Source of the DNA: Arbacia lixula
Taxonomy: Eukaryota; Echinodermata; Echinoidea; Arbacioida; Arbaciidae
DNA length: 64,000 nt
Direction of reading: 5' to 3'
NCBI GenBank assembly: GCA_963669155.1
Contig: OZ022591.1
Location: 9,646,253 to 9,710,252 of the forward strand
Shown: positions 21,908-32,206 of the stretch, in pieces
Position numbering within the stretch: position 1 is the stretch's first letter
Layout of the letters: each line of letters starts with the position of its first letter
The notes under the pieces: model-generated
What the model saw: only the letters and a program-made list of their open reading frames with translations
Told to the model about the DNA's origin: nothing
Databases searched by the model: none
Translations under genes and position numbers: made by a program

Positions 21908-22306
21908 GGGGGGTGTTTCACCAAGCTGTTCGTATTAAGCTATGAACGACTTTACAAATGACTGGTGATCCCTTCTTGTGCTAAATCAGATTTCAATGAA
22001 GAAAGTGTGGTATCGCATTTAGCACAAGATTAAAGAACTACACTACAGCTCAAAGGAATTGGCAGAGGGAAAGGGAAGAAAGGGAAGGAGCCGCAGTTTT
22101 AAACCGTGGTATATTTTGTCCAGTTCAGCATGAAACATGATGCTTTAGCCTGAAAAGCATATGTTTCATGCTGAACTGGACAAAATATACTGTGGTTTAT
22201 AACTGCAGCTCCTTCCCTTTCCCTATCCCAATTCCTTTGAGCTGGAGTGTAGGGATCACCAGTAAAGTCGTTCATAACTTTCAAACAGCTGGGTGAAACA
22301 CCCCCC
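21908..22306. mobile_element. Foldback MITE with GGGGGGTGTTTCACC ends
   Basis: Begins GGGGGGTGTTTCACCAAGCT and ends with the inverse AGCTGGGTGAAACACCCCCC. The inner arms (GGCAGAGGGAAAGGGAAG..., CAGTTCAGCATGAAACAT) are also inverted to each other, with the turn near 22145. Non-coding. Confidence 0.85.
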
Positions 22307-22700
22307 AGCTACAACTGGTGTTTTTCCAACTGGTGATCAATGGTTTTCCAACTGGTGTTTCACTGGTTTTTCCAAATCCAGGGGCCAGTAACTAATCCCA
22401 TTTCAATTTCCAGGGTTGCCTGTCGATTCAACCAGTTTAAGTGGACCAATGGTAGATCAGACCAATGGCAACTGGTGTTTTCAACGTTTTTCCAGCTTGA
22501 GTTCAACTGGTTTTCCCCAACTGGACTAGTTCCATTCTAATTTCTAGGGGTCACCAGTTAATTTCAACTGGTTCATCTGGACCAGTTGCAATTAACTGGT
22601 GTTCTCGACTGGTACAACTGGGAAATCATACAGACCAGTTATAAACTGCATGGTGCTATGGAATTCCATTTTTCAGACCAATTTATAAACTGGTGTATAC

Positions 22701-22917
22701 AACAGCTCAAAGCCAAGGAATTGCCAATTGGTAAGGGAAAGGGAAGAACGGGAAGGAGCCACAGTTTTAAACCGCGGTTTTATTTTGTACAGTTCAGCAT
22801 GAAACAGGATGCTTTAGCCTAAAAAAAACATCATGTTTCATGCTGAACTGGACAAAATATAGCACGGTTTAACACTGCGGTTCTTCCCTTTCCCTATGCC
22901 AATTCCTTTGAGCTGTA
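22701..22917. mobile_element. Second hairpin related to the core of 21908-22306
   Basis: Starts ACAGCTCAAAG and ends with its inverse. The arms carry the same GGGAAAGGGAAGAA, AGTTTTAAACC and CAGTTCAGCATGAAACA blocks as the neighbouring MITE but lack the GGGGGGTGTTTCACC ends. It is either a related smaller element or the inner part of one. Confidence 0.75.
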
Positions 22918-23034
22918 GAATGTCGTGTACACAAGAGAAAAGATCAACTGGTGTAACAAGTTCTGTATATTATTGTAGTAGTTAGCGACCCCACCCCTCC
23001 ACAAGCCCCGCCGATAGAGGGCAGCAGGGCTGCA

Positions 23035-23041
23035 TATATAA
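23035..23041 (+). promoter_or_regulatory. LTR TATA box
   Basis: TATATAA in a GC-rich setting 60 bp into the LTR. Transcription would be expected to start roughly 25-30 bp downstream, leaving an R-U5 part of about 130 bp. Confidence 0.65.
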
Positions 23042-23120
23042 GCCCTGCGCCGGGGAGAGGTCGACAGACCGAATCCTGACAGAGACTGAGACAGAACTGA
23101 TACAAGACAGATACAAACAA

Positions 23121-23128
23121 AGGTTAGT
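23121..23128 (+). promoter_or_regulatory. Candidate 5' splice site in the LTR
   Basis: AG|GTTAGT lies downstream of the presumed start of transcription. It could be the donor for the ORF3 message whose acceptor is at 27478. Only the consensus match supports it. Confidence 0.4.
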
Positions 23129-23197
23129 GTGTCGTTTGTATTCGTGGTCTGTTTGGTCTCTTGGTCTGACCAAGCGTTTCAGAGTGAACCGCTTCAT

Positions 23198-23213
23198 TGG
23201 CGCTTGCGAGCAG
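23198..23213 (+). other. Putative primer-binding site
   Basis: TGGCGCTTGCGAGCAG starts one base after the LTR. TGG matches the CCA end of a tRNA, as is standard for LTR elements. I cannot tell which tRNA. Confidence 0.6.
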
Positions 23214-24126
23214 AAGCTGTTCGCTGCTTTTGCGGCCTTTTTATTTAATCGATTTGTGGTGAGACTTTGCAGGTTCGCCGTGAGCTAGGCCTCTCATTGC
23301 GCATTAGATGCGTTCCCTGATGCGTGGGGGGAAAGTGCTCACGGCAGCCGCGTAGTCAAGCCACGTTTTTAGTTTCGGATCACATTAGTGTTTTGTTCGG
23401 TAGGGTTGCCTAGTCAGCCTTACCAATCGTAGTCCTAGTTTATTGCCATCTTTATAATTTTTTGTAGTGCGTGGTGTGTGTGTCCTGAGTCAGGTTCTTT
23501 TTAGTAGCCAGATTCGGGGCAATTTTTAGCTCGTTTTCGTACGGCATTTTTTCGTTTTCGCGTGGGGATATAGTTCCGGCCGCGGGCTGGAAATTTCCAC
23601 GAGGGAGCGGGGATCGTGCGTAAATCGTTGCACCTACGATTGGGTGATTGTGTGTTCGAGCGTGTGTGGCTGATCTGTCGGCTGCGCACTAGTTTAGTCT
23701 CGCGTCCGCGGGCTTTTACATCACTCGGTGGTGGGGCCTGCGCAGTGCGCGGCGCATAGTTGTTTTTCGTGTCGGGGACGGGCGGAGGGATACTTATTAT
23801 CCTCCCGCAAAAGTTTCCGGCGCCATCTTTGGACCGTGTCGATCGTGGACCAAACGTTGCACGCGTCTTCGGGACAGCGGTGATCTATCATCTACCCGAG
23901 ATTGACGGAGCGGTACGGAAAAGTGAGTTTTTGTGCTTTGATCTCCGTTTTATTTTGGATTTATAGATCTGAATCCGTGAGTTGTATATTTGTGTTCCAC
24001 TATTGGAACGGATTTTTAGCCAGTTTCGTATTTTCATCTTATATTTAAGTAAACATTTTGTGTGTGTGTGTGAGTGCATATTTGGGAGTGTCACGTGTGG
24101 ACCCACCCGTTCGTAGTAGCGGGGAG

Positions 24127-24175
24127 TCCGTTCAAAAAAAAAAAAAAAAAAATAAAAATAAAAAAAAAAAAAAAT
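24127..24175. repeat. A-rich run in the leader
   Basis: Almost uninterrupted A from about 24135 to 24174, with two T interruptions, inside the untranslated leader. Confidence 0.9.
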
Positions 24176-24260
24176 TTGTGCGGGTGTGAGGTGATTGTTG
24201 AGGTTGATTGTTTTTAGAGTTTGTTGAACTTCACAAATTGTGAGGTGCGTTTGTTTTTGT

Positions 24261-24422
24261 ATGGCCGGTGAGGGGGAGGATTTTGAAATCCAAATCCAAG
24301 GCAAACTTAATTTTTTATTATTTGTCATTGAGGCGTACAAGGCAGATATCATTACACTGCCGGAGCTTGTACAGCTGTTGGTCGATATTGTTTTCCAAGA
24401 GGGAATGCAATACGAATTTTAA
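24261..24422 (+). CDS. Short leader ORF (53 aa) of unknown role
   Basis: ATG at 24261, stop at 24420-24422. The product begins MAGEGEDFEIQIQ and continues with a strongly amphipathic stretch (LNFLLFVIEAYKADIITLPE). It lies 260 bp upstream of gag within the LTR element. It could be a genuine small protein or a translational control ORF. There is no recognisable family. Confidence 0.35.
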   Translation: MAGEGEDFEIQIQGKLNFLLFVIEAYKADIITLPELVQLLVDIVFQEGMQYEF

Positions 24423-24424
24423 GT

Positions 24425-24605
24425 TTTACCATTTTTGTACACCCTATGGTTGGCCATTTGCGCCGACTTGTACAATTTTTGTAAATTTTATAGTTGGCCA
24501 GTCGCGCCAAAATTTATAATTTTGGTAAAGTCTATAGGTGGCCAGCCGCGCGAAGTTTTATAACTTTCGTGCGTTATATAGGTGGCCAGTTACTCCAATA
24601 CTTAT
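24425..24605 (+). repeat. Tandem ~55-bp repeat before gag
   Basis: Four imperfect units share the phrase TATAGGTGGCCAG..GCGC (variants ATGGTTGGCCATTTGCGCC, TAGTTGGCCAGTCGCGCC, TAGGTGGCCAGCCGCGCG, TAGGTGGCCAGTTACTCC), each followed by a T/A-rich part. Position between leader and gag fits a packaging or translation-control element; the role is inferred. Confidence 0.7.
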
Positions 24606-24685
24606 AAATTTTGTTGTGTATAGTCTAGGTTGGTTCCAGACAAGCTTTGTCCAGAACCAGTAGGCCTAGAGCGTAAACTCGAACG

Positions 24686-26359
24686 ATGGATAGGGACACT
24701 AAAATCCCTATCAATCTGTGCTCCTTTGAGGAGCTTCATGAGGTGCCAGGGCTATCCCCAGCCCAGGCAGGAATCCTATTGGGTCTTAGAATTGAGCATG
24801 GGAACGTGACTCCCGAGCTCTTTGAGAAGTCTCCCGGACTTGTAGAGTCCAGGGGGCTACTCGACAAGTTTGATTACACACCCAGGAGTACGTCGGGGCT
24901 CCAGGGTCAGAGTGGGGAAGGCCAAGGCATTTTTTCCACTCCGATGGGATACCGGGTCCCAAACACCAGCACTCCTAGGGGGGCCCAAGCCCCGCTGGCG
25001 GAAGGGTGGGCGCCGCAGGGCGCCTGCACGTACCCGTATGATGTATACCCGCCTCCGTCGACACTGGAGACTACACGAAGGTCTCCGGGTCGCACACCAG
25101 CGCCCTCGCATGCACAACCTCGAGATGCGTATGGGTTGAGAGAGTCCTCTCGGATGGGGGACGCCCTCGCCGATAGGCAGGGGCGTCGTGGCCCCACCGT
25201 CCGGGATTACTCGCTCAGCTCCTGTGCAGCCAGCGCGAATAGAGGAAGCGTAAGTGGAGGGCGGGGCCCACAGGCCTCGCTACCACCACCTGATTTCGGG
25301 TCAAGAGATATTCGGAATTATCGCGAAAGTCAACCTGGACTCTTCTCTAGTTCAATCCCGATAGGGCAGGGGGGTGGCAGGTCTATGTACCAGCCTCTCC
25401 CCAAGGCCATAGCCTTTGACGGACAGGGGAGCTGGAGAACGTTCCAACGAAAATTCACGGTCTACGCCGACCAACAAAGGTGGACCTGGGCTGAACGGGT
25501 CTATCAGTTGCATTGGGGCATGACTGGGAAGGCTGGAGACTACCTCAGCCTGGTTCTTGAACAAGAGCCGGACTTGGGGTATCTCGATATCCTTGAACGA
25601 ATGGAGCAGCGTTTTGGCGAGGGTGGATTACCTGAATCCGCCCAGCTGGAATTTGCTTCAGCCAAGCAGGGGCAAGACGAGTCCCTGCCGGAATGGGCTG
25701 ACCGGATACTACGGTTGGCACTGAGAGCGTTTCCGGGGGTGGAAGGGCACTACCCACAGCAGCAGGCAGTCCTCCGCCTGTGCCAAGGGTGTGCCAATAG
25801 GGAGGCAGGGTGTCACGCACTCACCCAGCATCCCGCCACCATTAGGGAGGCTCTCCAGTCAATAGAGTGGCACCAGCATGTCCATCGGGCCATGTATGGT
25901 CGTGCCCGCGCTATCAAGCCAGTCGCGATGACTACCGTTGAGGAGGGAGAGGTCCGTAAGGTCGATCTCTCTCCCCCCGCGTCCACAAGATCTACTGAAG
26001 AGGGAAGATATGCTGCCCCGGAGCGTCGCTTAATCGCGTCGGAGCGCCGATCTTCCGAAACGGAGCGCAAACTAAGCGAACTGGAGCGAAGGACTGGGGA
26101 GCGCTTAGACCAATTAGAGCGCGATATGAAAAAAGTTTTGGAGCTGCTACAGCCCAAGTCTGAAGCTTCCAGGGAACGGCCAAAGTCTCCTGGAGGTGAC
26201 AGATGCTACGGCTGTGGGGGGTATGGGCACTTCCGCCGACAATGCCCAAACCCCAAGGAAAACAGAGCGAAGGTACAGGTTTCCTTTGTTGAAGGTTTGG
26301 AGGAGGAAAACTGCAGCGGGTCGGAGGAAGAGGCCAACCTCCGACCCACATCGCCATAG
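24686..26359 (+). CDS. gag: Gag polyprotein with HhH-like N-terminus and CCHC knuckle
   Basis: 557 aa. Residues about 8-45 (INLCSFEELHEVPGLSPAQA...) read like a helix-hairpin-helix repeat of the ComEA type. Residues about 80-220 are a Pro/Gly/Arg-rich linker. The capsid-like part follows (GQGSWRTFQRKFTVYADQQ near 247, then ALRAFPGVEGHYPQQQAVLR), as in the Retrotrans_gag family of Ty3/Gypsy elements. Residues about 445-490 form an E/R-rich coiled coil (repeated ERR/LERR), and a single CCHC zinc knuckle, CYGCGGYGHFRRQC, starts at residue 507. Expected role: assembling the particle and binding element RNA. The frame is intact. Its 3' end overlaps the protease frame by 67 bases. Confidence 0.9.
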   Translation: MDRDTKIPINLCSFEELHEVPGLSPAQAGILLGLRIEHGNVTPELFEKSPGLVESRGLLDKFDYTPRSTSGLQGQSGEGQGIFSTPMGYRVPNTSTPRGAQAPLAEGWAPQGACTYPYDVYPPPSTLETTRRSPGRTPAPSHAQPRDAYGLRESSRMGDALADRQGRRGPTVRDYSLSSCAASANRGSVSGGRGPQASLPPPDFGSRDIRNYRESQPGLFSSSIPIGQGGGRSMYQPLPKAIAFDGQGSWRTFQRKFTVYADQQRWTWAERVYQLHWGMTGKAGDYLSLVLEQEPDLGYLDILERMEQRFGEGGLPESAQLEFASAKQGQDESLPEWADRILRLALRAFPGVEGHYPQQQAVLRLCQGCANREAGCHALTQHPATIREALQSIEWHQHVHRAMYGRARAIKPVAMTTVEEGEVRKVDLSPPASTRSTEEGRYAAPERRLIASERRSSETERKLSELERRTGERLDQLERDMKKVLELLQPKSEASRERPKSPGGDRCYGCGGYGHFRRQCPNPKENRAKVQVSFVEGLEEENCSGSEEEANLRPTSP

Positions 26360-27339
26360 GGCCACAGCTAGACAGGAACGGTTGCACGTTCCAGGATAGC
26401 GTGGATGGGCCGCCCATAGGCCCAACCAAACCAGAGGAAGAACCTGGGGTGCATTCATGCATAATTACTCTAGGGGATCCAGTGGTTAAAAGTCTAGCAC
26501 AGTATGTAGAGGAGATCACGGCTCCTGAAGCTGATATCGGCACCTCGGACATCCGGTCATTTGACCGGATAGGGGAGGGTCCAGAAATTATTCCAGACCA
26601 CCCCCCGGGGGCCGAAAAGGCTGAAGAAGTGGTGGTATGTAGGTTGGAGTCCGGCTCCACCCTCAATGCTTCCGTGATAGTCGGGGGCCAGCCAGTTAGC
26701 GCAGTGGTAGATACGGCCGCGGAGGTATCACTTATCTCGGAGGAAATGTTTCAACTACTGTGTCCACGCCCGCCCAAGCTGCGAAACGTTATCCTACACG
26801 CGGCGGGTAAGGATATGAGGATGAAAGGGACAGTAGTCGGACCTATCTCTGTGAAGTTGGGAAACCAAACATATCTCGAGGAGATTTATGTGGCACCGAT
26901 AGCGGGCCGCATGCTCCTGGGATTGGACTTCCTGAGTAAACACAAGGTAACCATTCATCTTCAAGAGCCACACTTACGAATAGGAGAAGAGACGGTTCCT
27001 CTTTGGTTTGAGCACGATCCAGGGCGTCGTGTCGCTCGGGTTCATGCACGCAAGCGTGTGGTGGTACCACCGAACGCAATCAAGAGGATCACAGGAATTA
27101 TTGACCAGCGGTTAGGAACAGGTATTTTCGAACCGCAGGTGGATCTTCCAGTCATGATTCCCAGTTCCATCCACGGGGCAGGGGAAACGGTAGAACTCTA
27201 TGCCATCAATCCCACGGATAGACACCAGGAAATCACTTGTTCAGGTGTCTTGGGGGAGGCTGGACAACTGCAAGACATGGAAATCCAGGAACTTAGCTTG
27301 GGGGATGCAAGGGTTTCCCAAATTAAAACGGGGGGCTAA
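26293..27339 (+). CDS. pro: Retropepsin-like protease / start of Pol, -1 frame
   Basis: Open in the -1 frame relative to gag from 26293 (just after a TGA) to the stop at 27337-27339, overlapping gag until 26359. No ATG sits at its head, so a gag-pro frameshift in the overlap is the likely way to express it; GGAAAAC at 26305-26311 is a possible slip site, not a perfect one. The aspartic-protease core is present: AVVDTAAEVSLISEEMF (active site D-T-A) and, about 75 residues on, GRMLLGLDFL. The following VVVPPNAIKRITG and VDLPVMIPSS blocks are the stretch that in Gypsy Pol leads into reverse transcriptase. Here the frame simply stops. The 7 bp of G before the TAA and the next 140 bases contain no RT remnant. 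Confidence 0.82.
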   Translation, partial: RFGGGKLQRVGGRGQPPTHIAIGPQLDRNGCTFQDSVDGPPIGPTKPEEEPGVHSCIITLGDPVVKSLAQYVEEITAPEADIGTSDIRSFDRIGEGPEIIPDHPPGAEKAEEVVVCRLESGSTLNASVIVGGQPVSAVVDTAAEVSLISEEMFQLLCPRPPKLRNVILHAAGKDMRMKGTVVGPISVKLGNQTYLEEIYVAPIAGRMLLGLDFLSKHKVTIHLQEPHLRIGEETVPLWFEHDPGRRVARVHARKRVVVPPNAIKRITGIIDQRLGTGIFEPQVDLPVMIPSSIHGAGETVELYAINPTDRHQEITCSGVLGEAGQLQDMEIQELSLGDARVSQIKTGG

Positions 27340-27434
27340 CTCCTAGTCTCCACATAGACAAATATTGCCCTCTCTGTGTAGGTAGGGAGAAGTAAGGGCA
27401 GAGAATGTGGAATGATTGGGTCTTCTTGGTTAGA

Positions 27435-27478
27435 TACTAATTATGTTTTCTTCTTTTCTCTTGTTCTCCTTGCTACAG
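27435..27478 (+). promoter_or_regulatory. Branch point and 3' splice site for ORF3
   Basis: TACTAAT at 27435-27441, then a T/C-rich tract (TTTTCTTCTTTTCTCTTGTTC), then TACAG ending at 27478, directly followed by ATG at 27479. This is a textbook acceptor, so ORF3 is probably translated from a spliced message. Confidence 0.75.
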
Positions 27479-29992
27479 ATGACTGAGTTGAGGGCAGAGG
27501 ACCTTCCTTTGCCCTCAGATAGTGATGAGGACTGGCTACTCGGCGGTGAGGAGCCGGGGGCCGTGGAGGGTGGGATGGAGCCGGCGGAGCTGCGTCCCAC
27601 GGAAGTGGAGGAGGGTGGGGTCGACCGGCCTGACTCTACACTCCCCACTCGAAATCAGGTAATGGGTTTGGGAGGGGCCCCTATGGCTCAACCCAATCCC
27701 GCAGAAGACCTGGGAGGAGCTCAAAGTGCGCCTTCCGAGGTGGTGGTGGAGGAAGGGAACCTTGCGGTTGCCTCACCAGCCCCCGAAGGGGAAACCTGGG
27801 CGGGACAGTTGGTGAGGTGGCTAGTGGGGGGACCTTCTCTCCCCTACCCTAGTTTTGTGGTCCGCTTGGCCCCGTCTGAGCTGCCCTGGGACTTCGTCCT
27901 GGCGCACTTGGACATGGTGTACACGCGGGCCGCAGAGTCATGTGATGCGGGCTGGGTCAGTTGCCTGCATGAGTACCTCAGGGGACGCCTGTCTCCAGAG
28001 GACTATGTCAACAGGTACCCTTTGCTGGGGTCAGAGGAGGGCGCCGAGGAGGGGGCTGAGGGATTAAGATTCTTCGACCCCCCCACTCCTTGGTGGGAGC
28101 CGGGCATGGAGAAAAGTCAGCGTTTTCACCGCAGCCTGGCCCACCTTTCGCCCTTCTCGTGGCATACTCCAGTGGGGTCCTCAGGATTTGGGGCAAGGCC
28201 TCAACCAGAGGTTCAGGGCAATTTGTGCCTCGAACCTGCACCAGCTGACTTACATCCAGCTGGGGTTGGGCCAACCTCAAAGGGTCACTCCGAGGCTCCC
28301 ATGGAGGCAGAGGAGGCTATGGACACGGGGGATTCGTCTCCTGTGCCTAGCTCCCCTCCTTCGAGCACCCGGGTGACACCGCCTGAGGAGCTGACTCGTT
28401 CTCAGCTTCCCCAGGCCGAAGTGGGAGCCACTCGGGCAGGTGTCACATCCCGCCCGGGTAAGCGACCAGGGGGAGGGTCCGTAGATGGGCCTTCCCGCAA
28501 ACGCAAGGCGAGGGGCATGTGTCCCCTTTGCCAAGCTAGGCCGGCGGGAAAGTTGAGGACGCATGTCTATCGACACATGCCGCCAGCGTTGCGCTTGTGC
28601 CAGGGCAAGGATGCCCCTGAGAAATTGCCGCTTCTCGGGGTCAAAGGATGCCTCAGGTTCATGTCGCAAGCGCTGACTGGGTCAACTGAACTGGAGAGCC
28701 TCATGCGGTTTGTGGACAGTGGGGCACCTGAGGACTGGGATTGGTCTATCCCGGACGTCATGGAGGAGGATATGATTCGCCTCCATGAAGGTCTGCGGAT
28801 TCCGGTCCCTCCTCAACTGTCCGTCCGGCCCATGAGCTCTTTCGTGGTGCTGCTGCACTGGAGGGTGTTAGCCTGGCTCGTGCCTCAACTGAGCACTGAG
28901 CAGAGGGACAGGCTGCACTTTCTGGGAGGGTCTCGCCCAAGGCAGACCACAGCAACCACCACAGGAGTTGAGTCAACTCAGGCAGGTGGCGACACGCCAT
29001 CCGCACCGAGCGTGGCACCATCATCTGATGGAGGTGGGAATACTGTTCCCGCCGCTGCTGCTTCGGCTGCGGGGGCGGCCCCGCCTCCTGCGGCGGCTGG
29101 AGCTTCTGCTCCGGTTGCAGGGTCCTCCACAAAGGGTTCGGGTGTATCGTATGCCCGGGCCACATCTAAGCCACCTGTCCCCTTAGCTTTCGATAGCCAT
29201 TTCCATTTGGATAGGCTAGAGGCGAAGACAGGAAAGGCGGGGCTTGGGTGTGTGGAGACTCTGGCCGGCAGGGAACCGCGGGTTCCGGTGCGACTCTGCG
29301 GGGGCGTGGTCAATTACTGCGACCCCAAAGGACACCGGAACATCAAGTTCCCTGCGGACCGGAAGTGGAAGGTGTCGGTGGGGGTGCACCCCAAGCATGC
29401 CCCCACCTTCGATGAAGTGGATCTGGACGTTATGGGCAAGCTTGCCTGTGACGCCAGAGTTTGTGCCATAGGGGAAGTGGGGCTCGACTACTCCGTTCCC
29501 CCTAAGGCCTGGCCGAGGCAGCTGAGCGTCTACAAGACGATTCTTGAGAAGCTTGGTGCGTCCGGCCAGGTCTTGGTCCTTCATCTCCGGGGTGAGCAGG
29601 GAGCCCCGGATTCTGACAAGCCCTCTCGCGTCTGCAGGGAGGCAACTGTCGGAAGGGTCAATAAGCACCAGCGGATTCACATCCACTCGTGCACATTGAG
29701 CCCTTCTGAGGCCAAGGCGTGGGGGAAAGCATTCCCAAACGCCTACTTCGGCTTTAATGCCTTGGTCCGGTCGTTTTCGAAGGCCCAGTTGTCCGCCCTG
29801 CGGGCGATCCCTCCGAGTCGGGTTCTGTTAGAGACCGACTCCCCTCATCTGCCCTTAGGTGGGGGCATCACTCACATGACCCCTGCTTATATAGGGGAGG
29901 TGGGACTGCTTGTCGCCAAGGCACGGCAAGAACAGTTCCACCCCTTCATGGAGAGAGTTAGGGCAAATGCCCTGACGCTCTATGGAGCCTAA
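27479..29992 (+). CDS. ORF3: C2H2 finger plus TatD-type nuclease
   Basis: 837 aa counted from the ATG that abuts the splice acceptor; an ATG at 27443 is inside the presumed intron. Residues 1-340 are acidic and Pro-rich without a known domain. A C2H2 finger follows (C348-x2-C351-x10-H362-x3-H366). After a Ser/Ala/Pro linker (about 490-560) comes a TatD-family domain: FDSHFHLDRL with the HxH pair at 574/576, IGEVGLDY with Glu 666, VLHLRG with His 702, HIHSC with His 734 (or 736) and LLETDSPHL with Asp 787. These are the metal ligands of TatD 3'-5' DNases, a branch of the amidohydrolase fold. Known: TatD proteins cut DNA and RNA with divalent metals. Inferred: the element carries an active nuclease in the place of Pol. 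The frame is complete with no stop. The host gene it was captured from cannot be named. Confidence 0.85.
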   Translation: MTELRAEDLPLPSDSDEDWLLGGEEPGAVEGGMEPAELRPTEVEEGGVDRPDSTLPTRNQVMGLGGAPMAQPNPAEDLGGAQSAPSEVVVEEGNLAVASPAPEGETWAGQLVRWLVGGPSLPYPSFVVRLAPSELPWDFVLAHLDMVYTRAAESCDAGWVSCLHEYLRGRLSPEDYVNRYPLLGSEEGAEEGAEGLRFFDPPTPWWEPGMEKSQRFHRSLAHLSPFSWHTPVGSSGFGARPQPEVQGNLCLEPAPADLHPAGVGPTSKGHSEAPMEAEEAMDTGDSSPVPSSPPSSTRVTPPEELTRSQLPQAEVGATRAGVTSRPGKRPGGGSVDGPSRKRKARGMCPLCQARPAGKLRTHVYRHMPPALRLCQGKDAPEKLPLLGVKGCLRFMSQALTGSTELESLMRFVDSGAPEDWDWSIPDVMEEDMIRLHEGLRIPVPPQLSVRPMSSFVVLLHWRVLAWLVPQLSTEQRDRLHFLGGSRPRQTTATTTGVESTQAGGDTPSAPSVAPSSDGGGNTVPAAAASAAGAAPPPAAAGASAPVAGSSTKGSGVSYARATSKPPVPLAFDSHFHLDRLEAKTGKAGLGCVETLAGREPRVPVRLCGGVVNYCDPKGHRNIKFPADRKWKVSVGVHPKHAPTFDEVDLDVMGKLACDARVCAIGEVGLDYSVPPKAWPRQLSVYKTILEKLGASGQVLVLHLRGEQGAPDSDKPSRVCREATVGRVNKHQRIHIHSCTLSPSEAKAWGKAFPNAYFGFNALVRSFSKAQLSALRAIPPSRVLLETDSPHLPLGGGITHMTPAYIGEVGLLVAKARQEQFHPFMERVRANALTLYGA

Positions 29993-30074
29993 AAGCAGGG
30001 GCATAGGGTACGGTGGGAAATTGTTTTCCGCCGGCCACCGAGAAGTGGGTATCATGTAAAGATCCTACTTCTTT

Positions 30075-30240
30075 TTCTGTCCATCTGAAGGTGGAATCCA
30101 TCAGGGATTCCACTTTCTTAAATTCTATCGGTAGGTGGGATTCATTTAGGATTCTATCTTTCCAAATTCCTCATTTCCATTGGTAGGAGGAAACCATTTG
30201 GGATTCCACCTTTTCGGTTCCAATGGTATGTAACGGGTCT
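30075..30240 (+). repeat. Short repeats after ORF3
   Basis: Three spaced units share GGTGGAATCCAT.AGGGATTCCAC.TT and TTCTATCGGTAGGTGGGATTCAT-like phrases, partly palindromic (GGAATC...GATTCC). Non-coding. Confidence 0.6.
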
Positions 30241-30501
30241 CAAAATGGCCTGCTCCGTTTAATGGCGACGCTGGCGCCTCCTGGCCTACGCCTGAGTTAC
30301 CTAGGTGGGCTTCCATTATGTGGATCCCACCGATAGTACCCGAGTAATGAACATCTCGCACTGGTAAGATGGCGTCCTAGCCCGGGCAGGATAAGCGGAT
30401 AGCTCACCGCCATGGGAGCAAGGAGGATTTTGGGCAAAAGGGGTAGGGGGGACCCATAGGGAAAATACTTTTTTTTCTTCTTATTGGGGACCTTGTTTTT
30501 T

Positions 30502-30515
30502 AAAACGGGGGGGAG
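30502..30515 (+). other. Polypurine tract
   Basis: AAAACGGGGGGGAG lies directly before the TG of the right LTR, the normal place for the plus-strand primer of reverse transcription. Confidence 0.85.
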
Positions 30516-30738
30516 TGTAGTAGTTAGCGACCCCACCCCTCCACAAGCCCCGCCGATAGAGGGCAGCAGGGCTGCATATATAAGCCCTGCGCCGGGGAGA
30601 GGTCGACAGACCGAATCCTGACAGAGACTGAGACAGAACTGATACAAGACAGATACAAACAAAGGTTAGTGTGTCGTTTGTATTCGTGGTCTGTTTGGTC
30701 TCTTGGTCTGACCAAGCGTTTCAGAGTGAACCGCTTCA
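30516..30738 (+). repeat. 3' LTR
   Basis: 223 bp, same sequence as 22974-23196 over its whole length by visual comparison. Followed by the TTAT target duplication. Confidence 0.93.
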
Positions 30739-30742
30739 TTAT

Positions 30743-31702: not shown

Positions 31703-32193
31703 GTGATGTTTGAAGGTTTGCATGGTGGTATGATCAATCACGAGAGAGGTTTACGGTACACCATGTGTAAAGTCCTGGGAGGACTGAGATGAGAAAACGT
31801 GGATAGAATTGAAGGTGAAATGGACAGGCGAGAAAGTGGAGATTTGAAAGTAGAGTATTCTTTCGAAATGTGAGTGTAGTCCTGAAAAGGACTGTAAACC
31901 AGAAAGCGTGAAGAGCTGATGAGTAGAGAGGTGGACTCGACGTTTCGGGCAGATTGACTGTCCGTCTTCAGGAGTGGACAGTCAATCTGCCCGAAACGTC
32001 GAGTCCACCTCTCTACTCATCAGCTCTTCACGCTTTCTGGTTTACAGTCCTTTTCAGGACTACACTCACATTTCGAAAGAATACTCTACTCCACTTTCTC
32101 GCCTGTCCATTTCACCTTCAATTCTATCCACGTTTTCTCATCTCAGTCCTCCCAGGACTTTACACATGGTGTACCGTAAACCTCTCTCGTGAG
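31703..32193. mobile_element. Inverted repeat with Penelope-type hammerhead motifs
   Basis: Two arms, 31739-31963 and 31976-32192, are inverse copies with one 10-bp length difference near 31850. A 12-base spacer lies between them. The outside carries GGATAATAATCAT on both sides (31690-31702 and 32194-32206), which looks like a 13-bp target duplication. Each arm holds GCCCGAAACGTCGAG, the same phrase that occurs in the terminal repeats of the Penelope-like element at 56-60 kb. It is therefore probably an inverted, non-coding Penelope-related insertion. Confidence 0.75.
31939..31971 (-). ncRNA. Hammerhead-ribozyme-like motif
   Basis: Read on the minus strand: CTGAAGA (31971-31965), a helix II formed by GGACAG and CTGCCC with one mismatch, then CGAAAC and GTC. 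One unpaired C follows CTGAAGA. This matches the minimal hammerhead variants reported from Penelope-like elements. The other arm holds only the second half. Confidence 0.6.
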
Positions 32194-32206
32194 GGATAAT
32201 AATCAT

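Follow-up and report, generated by a model that had tools for sequence, protein, structure and literature searches.

Enzymes encoded in the position of env are already known from long terminal repeat (LTR) retrotransposons. The nearest precedent for the element described here, which carries an open reading frame (ORF) with a TatD-type nuclease domain and lies in a 64,000-nucleotide stretch of the Arbacia lixula genome (the window; G000:C16:9646253-9710252, within a genome of 607 Mb), comes from bdelloid rotifers, in which the third ORF (ORF3) of the Juno and Vesta LTR retrotransposons is described as a DEDDy exonuclease or a GDSL esterase (PMC5408684). Both kinds of element combine gag and pol with a third ORF that encodes an enzyme and stands where env would be; one bdelloid type of ORF3 is a 3'-5' nuclease, and the bdelloid DEDDy ORFs are reported to be closer to one another than to cellular ones. 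However, DEDDy was gained at least twice, in more recent branches, and the paper reports no significant departure of these ORF3s from neutrality (PMC5408684). The clade of the window element differs in its enzyme, TatD, in the dispersed branches that its TatD-linked members occupy in an integrase tree, in purifying selection on ORF3, and in two further features, a predicted splice acceptor and a C2H2-like finger. The text of PMC5408684 nowhere mentions TatD, and no description of TatD or TATDN2 in a retrotransposon was found in a literature search that took in few subscription papers and did not extend to Repbase, in line with the first-pass annotation, which knew of no LTR family with this layout. 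Within that literature, the TatD type of ORF3 is new.

Troyka elements are described as having the order Gag-protease-reverse transcriptase-RNase H-integrase (Gag-PR-RT-RH-IN), as occurring in animals including echinoderms, and as having many non-autonomous sea urchin forms, but with CG..CG ends and target-site duplications (TSDs) of 3 bp (PMC12440569). The TG..CA termini and 4-bp TSDs of the window family place it outside Troyka. Non-autonomous LTR elements of the TR-GAG type have LTRs and gag, lack RT and integrase, and are amplified in trans; the window element also keeps a protease and the nuclease ORF3, and at least two separate deletions lie behind its layout. The cellular protein TATDN2 resembles ORF3 in its TatD domain and long N-terminal region, but the host TATDN2 gene (L078) matches TatD in several separate pieces, like an intron-bearing gene, and falls on a separate branch.

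Structure of the window element

The element at positions 22974-30738 of the window is a recent LTR insertion encoding gag, a protease and a long ORF with a terminal TatD nuclease domain. Leaving aside the biochemical role of the nuclease, it is very probably a non-autonomous, internally deleted derivative of a Ty3/Gypsy-type LTR retrotransposon that carries a TatD ORF3. Its features are as follows.

22970-22973: 5' TSD, TTAT, partner at 30739-30742
22974-23196, forward strand: 5' LTR, 223 bp, TG..CA ends
23198-23213, forward strand: primer binding site (PBS), tRNA-Ser(CGA)-like, TGGCGCTTGCGAGCAG, one T more than in the C10 copy and the sister family
23923-23924, forward strand: candidate splice donor AAA/GTGAGT in the leader (prediction)
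24686-26359, forward strand: gag, 557 aa, with a weak helix-hairpin-helix match (24698-24808) and a CCHC knuckle (26201-26251)
26401-27339, forward strand: protease ORF, 312 aa, in a different frame from gag; protease domain at 26671-26937
27330-27345: deletion junction, with GGGG microhomology adjoining a run like a polypurine tract (PPT)
27443-27478, forward strand: predicted 3' splice site, a pyrimidine tract and CAG abutting the ATG at 27479
27479-29992, forward strand: ORF3, 837 aa (849 aa from the first ATG, at 27443)
28520-28576, forward strand: C2H2-like finger of ORF3
29189-29986, forward strand: TatD nuclease domain of ORF3
30502-30515, forward strand: 3' PPT, AAAACGGGGGGGAG
30516-30738, forward strand: 3' LTR, 223 bp, same sequence as the 5' LTR
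30739-30742: 3' TSD, TTAT

The identical LTRs, PBS and PPT of the first-pass annotation were all recovered, the LTR pair having no mismatches over 223 bp. Without its extra T, the PBS reads TGGCGCTGCGAGCAG, the form present in the C10 copy and the sister family (see below), and this form is complementary to the 3' end of a tRNA-Ser(CGA) gene in the host genome with CCA added; a search with a single pattern found no tRNA-like 3' end matching the window's extra-T form. The protease frame is open from 26293, giving a 67 nt overlap with gag. Its domain scores 39.2 bits against PF13975 (cut-off 28.2), whilst the knuckle (PF00098, 17.1 bits) falls below the cut-off of 20.8 with its CX2CX4HX4C motif nonetheless intact, and the helix-hairpin-helix match at the Gag N-terminus (PF12836) is weak, at 16.8 bits against a cut-off of 27. 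As had been noted, the three window ORFs contain no Pfam match to RT, RNase H or integrase families at E values up to 1.

ORF3 extends for 837 aa from the ATG at 27479 to end, as originally described, in a TatD domain, which scores 89.2 bits against PF01026 (TatD_DNase; cut-off 27) and covers model positions 1-253 of 253. This match and the metal ligands place it in the TatD family, and the score, with the relatives in other genomes, rules out a chance ORF. With a profile built from 31 ORF3 rows, matches were obtained to the E. coli proteins YcfH and TatD and to the human TATDN1 and TATDN3 chains. The ligand set of the family, which we take to be HxH, E, H, H and D, corresponds in the numbering of the 849-aa form to candidates H586, H588, E678, H714, H748 and D799; across the 31-row alignment five of these are invariant and the E is found in at least 90% of rows. 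Hence the ligands first proposed are in place with the exception of H734 (H746 in the longer numbering), for which the invariant histidine is two residues further on, at H748.

The polymerase in other copies

Searches of the host genome with ORF3, the LTR and gag, which give lower bounds on copy number, identified at least six LTR-paired copies with LTRs 96-100% identical to those in the window: C16 (the window copy), C5:21824226, C19:18580682, C12:14947920, C12:802367 and C10:1179472. In all six, the LTR pair has no mismatches and is flanked by 4-bp TSDs that differ from copy to copy; a lone LTR on C11 is likewise flanked by a TSD, and another lone LTR lies on C579. The copy at C12:802367-817561 has LTRs 99% identical to those of the window element and measures 15.2 kb, of which about 4.3 kb, in the leader, is unrelated sequence. 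Between its protease and its TatD ORF, in locus L069, lie RT, RNase H, integrase and a PHD finger, and the gag, ORF3 and LTRs that go with them are the same as in the window element; its pol has one in-frame stop, in RT. The copy at C10:1179472-1187507, with LTRs 100% identical to the window's, has RT-RH and lacks most of the integrase: sequence for protease, RT and RNase H is followed by the beginning of the integrase and then by the TatD domain. This order was read in a pair of loci separated by 147 bases, and the genome search gives one open frame of 1324 aa. Partial copies that also contain pol sequence lie at C17:21217052-21235726, C18:15021834-15027345 and C5:25155350. The first-pass annotation had held that the nuclease replaced the polymerase, and had named copies with the same LTR and RT-IN as the finding that would overturn this; those copies exist, and the claim falls.

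Compared with L069, about 3.15 kb is missing from the window element, namely RT-RH-IN together with the greater part of the PHD finger. Only the two ends of the C12 copy's pol stretch have a DNA match in the window. The same junction is common to the C16, C5 and C19 insertions, each of which has a different TSD. At C12:14947920 a different junction has removed about 3.5 kb, including RT-IN, and gag, the protease domain and ORF3 stay open; an older copy, C18:11357850-11363003, likewise passes from protease to what is left of an ORF3. Since RT-IN sits at this place in copies with near-identical LTRs, and the two junctions differ, the gag-protease-TatD layout is a deletion product; it arose by at least two separate deletions, and one such product has inserted at three sites. 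The Ty3/Gypsy assignment follows from the TG..CA LTRs, 4-bp TSD, PBS and PPT and from the pol order PR-RT-RH-IN, which is absent from the window copy and found in L069 (in two pieces either side of the stop) and in L070.

As a single deletion is found at three sites with different TSDs, the RT and integrase presumably came from elsewhere, and the differing TSDs also disfavour segmental duplication as the source of the C5, C16 and C19 copies. The original suggestion that these activities were borrowed in trans therefore stands, reinforced by the independent deletion; nor is the window element a single chimeric copy, given the shared junction and the same layout reached independently at C12:14947920. 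The TatD ORF has also escaped disruption in most copies: ORF3 is open in four of the six LTR-paired copies (C16, C5 and both on C12), with the C5 version identical to that of the window, is split in C19, and is represented in C10 by the fused TatD domain only. In the anatomy and history of the element, taken by themselves, our confidence is high.

The breakpoint of the window deletion falls on a second PPT-like run, TTAAAACGGGGG. This run lies at the protease/RT boundary in the window family (family 1) and in family 2 (L069, 1083-1096; L076, 973-985; window, 27323-27335), resembles their 3' PPT and is a candidate central PPT.

Related families in the same genome

A sister family of at least seven copies includes one at C10:16.29 Mb in which the LTRs match at 347 of 347 positions and gag, pol (1371 aa) and the TatD ORF (580 aa) are all open. 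The pol frame is full-length and free of stops in five of the seven copies, ORF3 is open in all six that were fetched, and the gag has a similar N-terminal motif, as judged by eye. A third TatD family is present at C12:12932751-12939764, and a relative with an ORF3, 62% identical, at C4:12687775 (L015).

Family 2 has gag and a PHD-bearing pol. At least eight gag copies were found, four with full pol frames and four with the integrase part only; the copy that was read contains no TatD ORF, and none of the eight has an ORF3 match listed next to it. In the copy read, a run of 32 codons adjoining the pol stop is similar to the C-terminal end of TatD (tblastn E value 0.011), a suggestive but weak indication that ORF3 was lost.

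Loci C20:422076, C4:1346147, C19:4384818 and C1:45279985 seem to be an RT-less derivative of family 2 that keeps gag and integrase-PHD. Integrases of the clade (L069, L076, P0071-P0190) commonly end with a PHD finger, a possible chromatin-targeting module. At L077 (797-4918 of C5:1666500-1672500), a single ORF of 1373 aa combines internal repeats and a pair of C2H2-helical modules with a TatD domain in which D replaces the E of the usual ligand set. A match to an integrase C-terminus directly upstream speaks against a domesticated gene, and makes it more likely that this is the ORF3 of another family.

Relatives in other hosts and co-inheritance with integrase

ORF3 relatives are present in echinoderms (Lytechinus, Diadema, Strongylocentrotus and Acanthaster) and molluscs (Pinctada, Crassostrea, Ruditapes, Mya, Pecten and Elysia), represented mostly by protein sequence without genomic surroundings. 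In Acanthaster, integrase, PHD finger and TatD lie within one predicted protein (P0007). Three TatD proteins come from the same source as a pol protein and from a contig of identical length (11370, 8316 and 16046 bases), and each such pair is presumed to lie on one contig; the comparison covered parts of both lists, 20 TatD and 29 pol proteins.

The alignment of these relatives (A1) contains 27 of 70 ORF3-relative proteins. A TatD tree was built from element, TATDN2 and bacterial rows, leaving out TATDN1 and TATDN3, three element rows that were nearly identical to one another or to others, and two bacterial rows whose translations were short. All 28 element rows fall on one side of a branch with support 94/75, and 27 of them group at 98/96, the 28th (P0066) being a long branch. 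Both the 14 TATDN2 rows (100/99), amongst which the TATDN2 of the host genome groups with that of sea urchins, and the nine bacterial rows (100/96) stand apart, so the element TatDs lie outside the TATDN2 set and are not its orthologues; on this separate placement, capture of ORF3 from host TATDN2 is rejected. In a scan of genome contigs, the best 80 of 402 confirmed matches all had bacterial record titles and identities of 24-33%; ten were picked for the tree, of which eight were used. A scan of viral contigs with the TatD ORF3 retained two of 11 stretches.

A quick integrase tree of 39 rows (34 of 120 listed, from 844 found, with P0007 and four families from this genome) groups family 2 with family 1 (four rows, support 98) and scatters seven TatD-linked integrases across the tree; on this arrangement, a loss of TatD by family 2 is a simpler account than repeated gain. 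Across seven lineages, the TatD distances are correlated with the integrase distances (Mantel r 0.758, a value reached in 4 of 5040 permutations); for three of these lineages the pairing depends on the presumed shared contig. These comparisons identify TatD as an env-position ORF3 of a Ty3/Gypsy-type clade, in which it appears to be old and co-inherited with the integrase; a single origin is conceivable.

Some other sequences were encountered in these searches. P0174 (from a jgi source) is a clade pol with a further RNA-processing enzyme, a Tpt1/KptA RNA 2'-phosphotransferase domain (PF01885), lying by eye between the integrase and PHD finger. Retroelement-like proteins of the clade are filed under Sedimenticola and Thiodiazotropha metagenome-assembled genomes (MAGs; P0010, P0014, P0022, P0085, P0087 and P0115), and are probably contamination from the animal host. 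Conversely, the 13-kb contig G000:C506 encodes a full-length TatD that groups with bacterial TatDs and is probably a bacterial contaminant. Within the window, 22038-22894, directly upstream of the element, contains direct and inverted repeat blocks resembling a decayed foldback or miniature inverted-repeat transposable element cluster, and 31729-32201 is a near-perfect hairpin, in which 115-nt arms with 100% complementarity lie inside 113-nt arms with 97%.

Selection and expression of ORF3

Substitutions were counted with codon columns containing more than one change left out, and the p values are rough, as the copies are kin. Across three copies of the window family, ORF3 shows 20 synonymous and 21 nonsynonymous changes (dN/dS ratio 0.36, p 0.001), of which 17 and 18 are in the N part (p 0.003); gag shows 13 and 9 over five copies (p 5e-4), and the sister-family TatD 11 and 7 over six (ratio 0.19, p 6e-4). 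Hence ORF3 as a whole is under purifying selection, as had been proposed from its intact frame. Since part of the history recorded predates the deletions, this is no proof of a need for ORF3 in the deleted copies.

An acceptor-like site ends 0-2 nt before the ORF3 ATG in all five lineages examined: the window, sister and third TatD families, and L015 and L077, the last two being judged by eye, having been missed by the pattern search. Such a context occurs at two of the 90 ATGs in the window element, and the window leader has one good candidate donor. The simplest reading of these predicted sites would be spliced, env-like expression.

Possible roles of the nuclease

The full form of the element would run LTR, gag (with a helix-hairpin-helix-like motif and CCHC knuckle), protease-RT-RNase H-integrase(-PHD finger), ORF3, LTR, with ORF3 composed of the C2H2-like finger, a spacer and the TatD nuclease. 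Full elements would provide RT and integrase in trans to deleted ones, and ORF3 would be translated from a spliced subgenomic RNA, as is retroviral env. E. coli TatD is reported to be a 3'-5' exonuclease on single-stranded DNA and RNA (PMC12709183, PMC10707325), and ORF3 may likewise be a metal-dependent 3' nuclease on RNA or DNA ends. Its likeliest targets would be RNA:DNA hybrids, or the 3' ends of cDNA or RNA, while reverse transcription is under way or once it is complete; it might be most effective in cis, alongside the Gag by which the RNA is packaged, and the C2H2-like finger perhaps aims the nuclease. Our first choice, held tentatively, is that ORF3 acts on such hybrids or on 3' ends in nucleic acids belonging to the element itself. 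A site of action near the particle is favoured because ORF3 was kept with gag and protease when RT-IN was lost, and because TatD is fused to RT in the C10 copy; its absence from family 2 marks it as an accessory.

The second choice, somewhat doubtful, is action on the host, with ORF3 serving as an RNase similar to TATDN2 on R-loops, small RNAs or transcripts and allowing escape from silencing or replication stress in germ cells. Human TATDN2 is described as a 3' RNA exonuclease and endonuclease acting on R-loops (PMC10707325, PMC12709183), and medaka tatdn2 as protecting primordial germ cells (PMC12709183); separate spliced expression would release ORF3 from the particle, and such a role would explain its dispensability in family 2. 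However, the position of the element TatDs outside TATDN2 means that the TATDN2 substrate cannot simply be transferred to them, and the in-frame RT-RH-TatD fusion in C10, an inserted copy, implies that TatD can ride with RT. An apurinic/apyrimidinic (AP) endonuclease or repair function on damaged or deaminated cDNA is improbable: TATDN1, TATDN3 and E. coli TatD are reported to have AP-endonuclease activity (PMC12709183), but no datum here singles this role out. Slightly less credible still is a functionless passenger derived from a host mRNA. LTR elements are described as transducing host genes (PMC7264820), and family 2 spreads without TatD; against this, the element TatDs cluster together and separately from the TATDN2 rows, the divergence of ORF3 is correlated with that of integrase, the metal ligands vary little or not at all, ORF3 is under purifying selection, and two independent RT-IN deletions have both kept ORF3 and the acceptor-like site. 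A distinct retroelement class with TatD in the polymerase's stead, despite the occurrence of the layout in four insertions of the window family and of a protease joined to TatD without RT in P0066 from another genome, is very improbable and refuted as an origin, because RT-RH(-IN) occupies precisely this position in copies whose LTRs are 99-100% identical, and the two junctions signify loss.

Several results weigh against our preferred account of a derivative mobilised in trans, carrying an old, spliced and selected nuclease. Amongst the own-family copies listed, none has an intact pol (C12 has one in-frame stop, C17 has one, and C10 lacks most of the integrase) and no helper was identified. 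By the rule used for the window leader, the sister-family leader contains no splice donor. The N part of the sister-family ORF3 shows no significant constraint (4 synonymous and 9 nonsynonymous changes, ratio 0.68, p 0.36), and the own-family TatD domain alone, with 3 and 3 changes, offers too few sites (p 0.17). The TatD tree speaks only on descent from TATDN2 or bacteria, and the state of ORF3 is known for few rows of the quick integrase tree. Family 2, with a full pol and no TatD ORF, has nevertheless reached eight closely similar copies, and TatD is therefore not essential for spread.

Implications for env-position proteins

TatD is a further nuclease family amongst the env-position proteins of LTR retrotransposons. 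Some of the sea urchin and mollusc TatD proteins recorded as 'uncharacterized', and some of those in symbiont MAGs, may be retrotransposon ORF3s. Possibly, in a Gypsy-type clade of echinoderms and molluscs, TatD acts in cis as an aid to replication or a counter to silencing, is expressed by splicing in the manner of env, and is so closely tied to Gag that RT and integrase can be dropped and borrowed whilst gag, protease and nuclease stay; gag-protease-nuclease would then be a recurrent satellite state of the retroelement. As this clade has a seemingly old TatD co-inherited with the integrase, the role of enzymatic third ORFs becomes testable, and the natural series that it provides, in which the nuclease occurs with or without the polymerase and the polymerase with or without the nuclease, amounts to a genetic experiment already set up.

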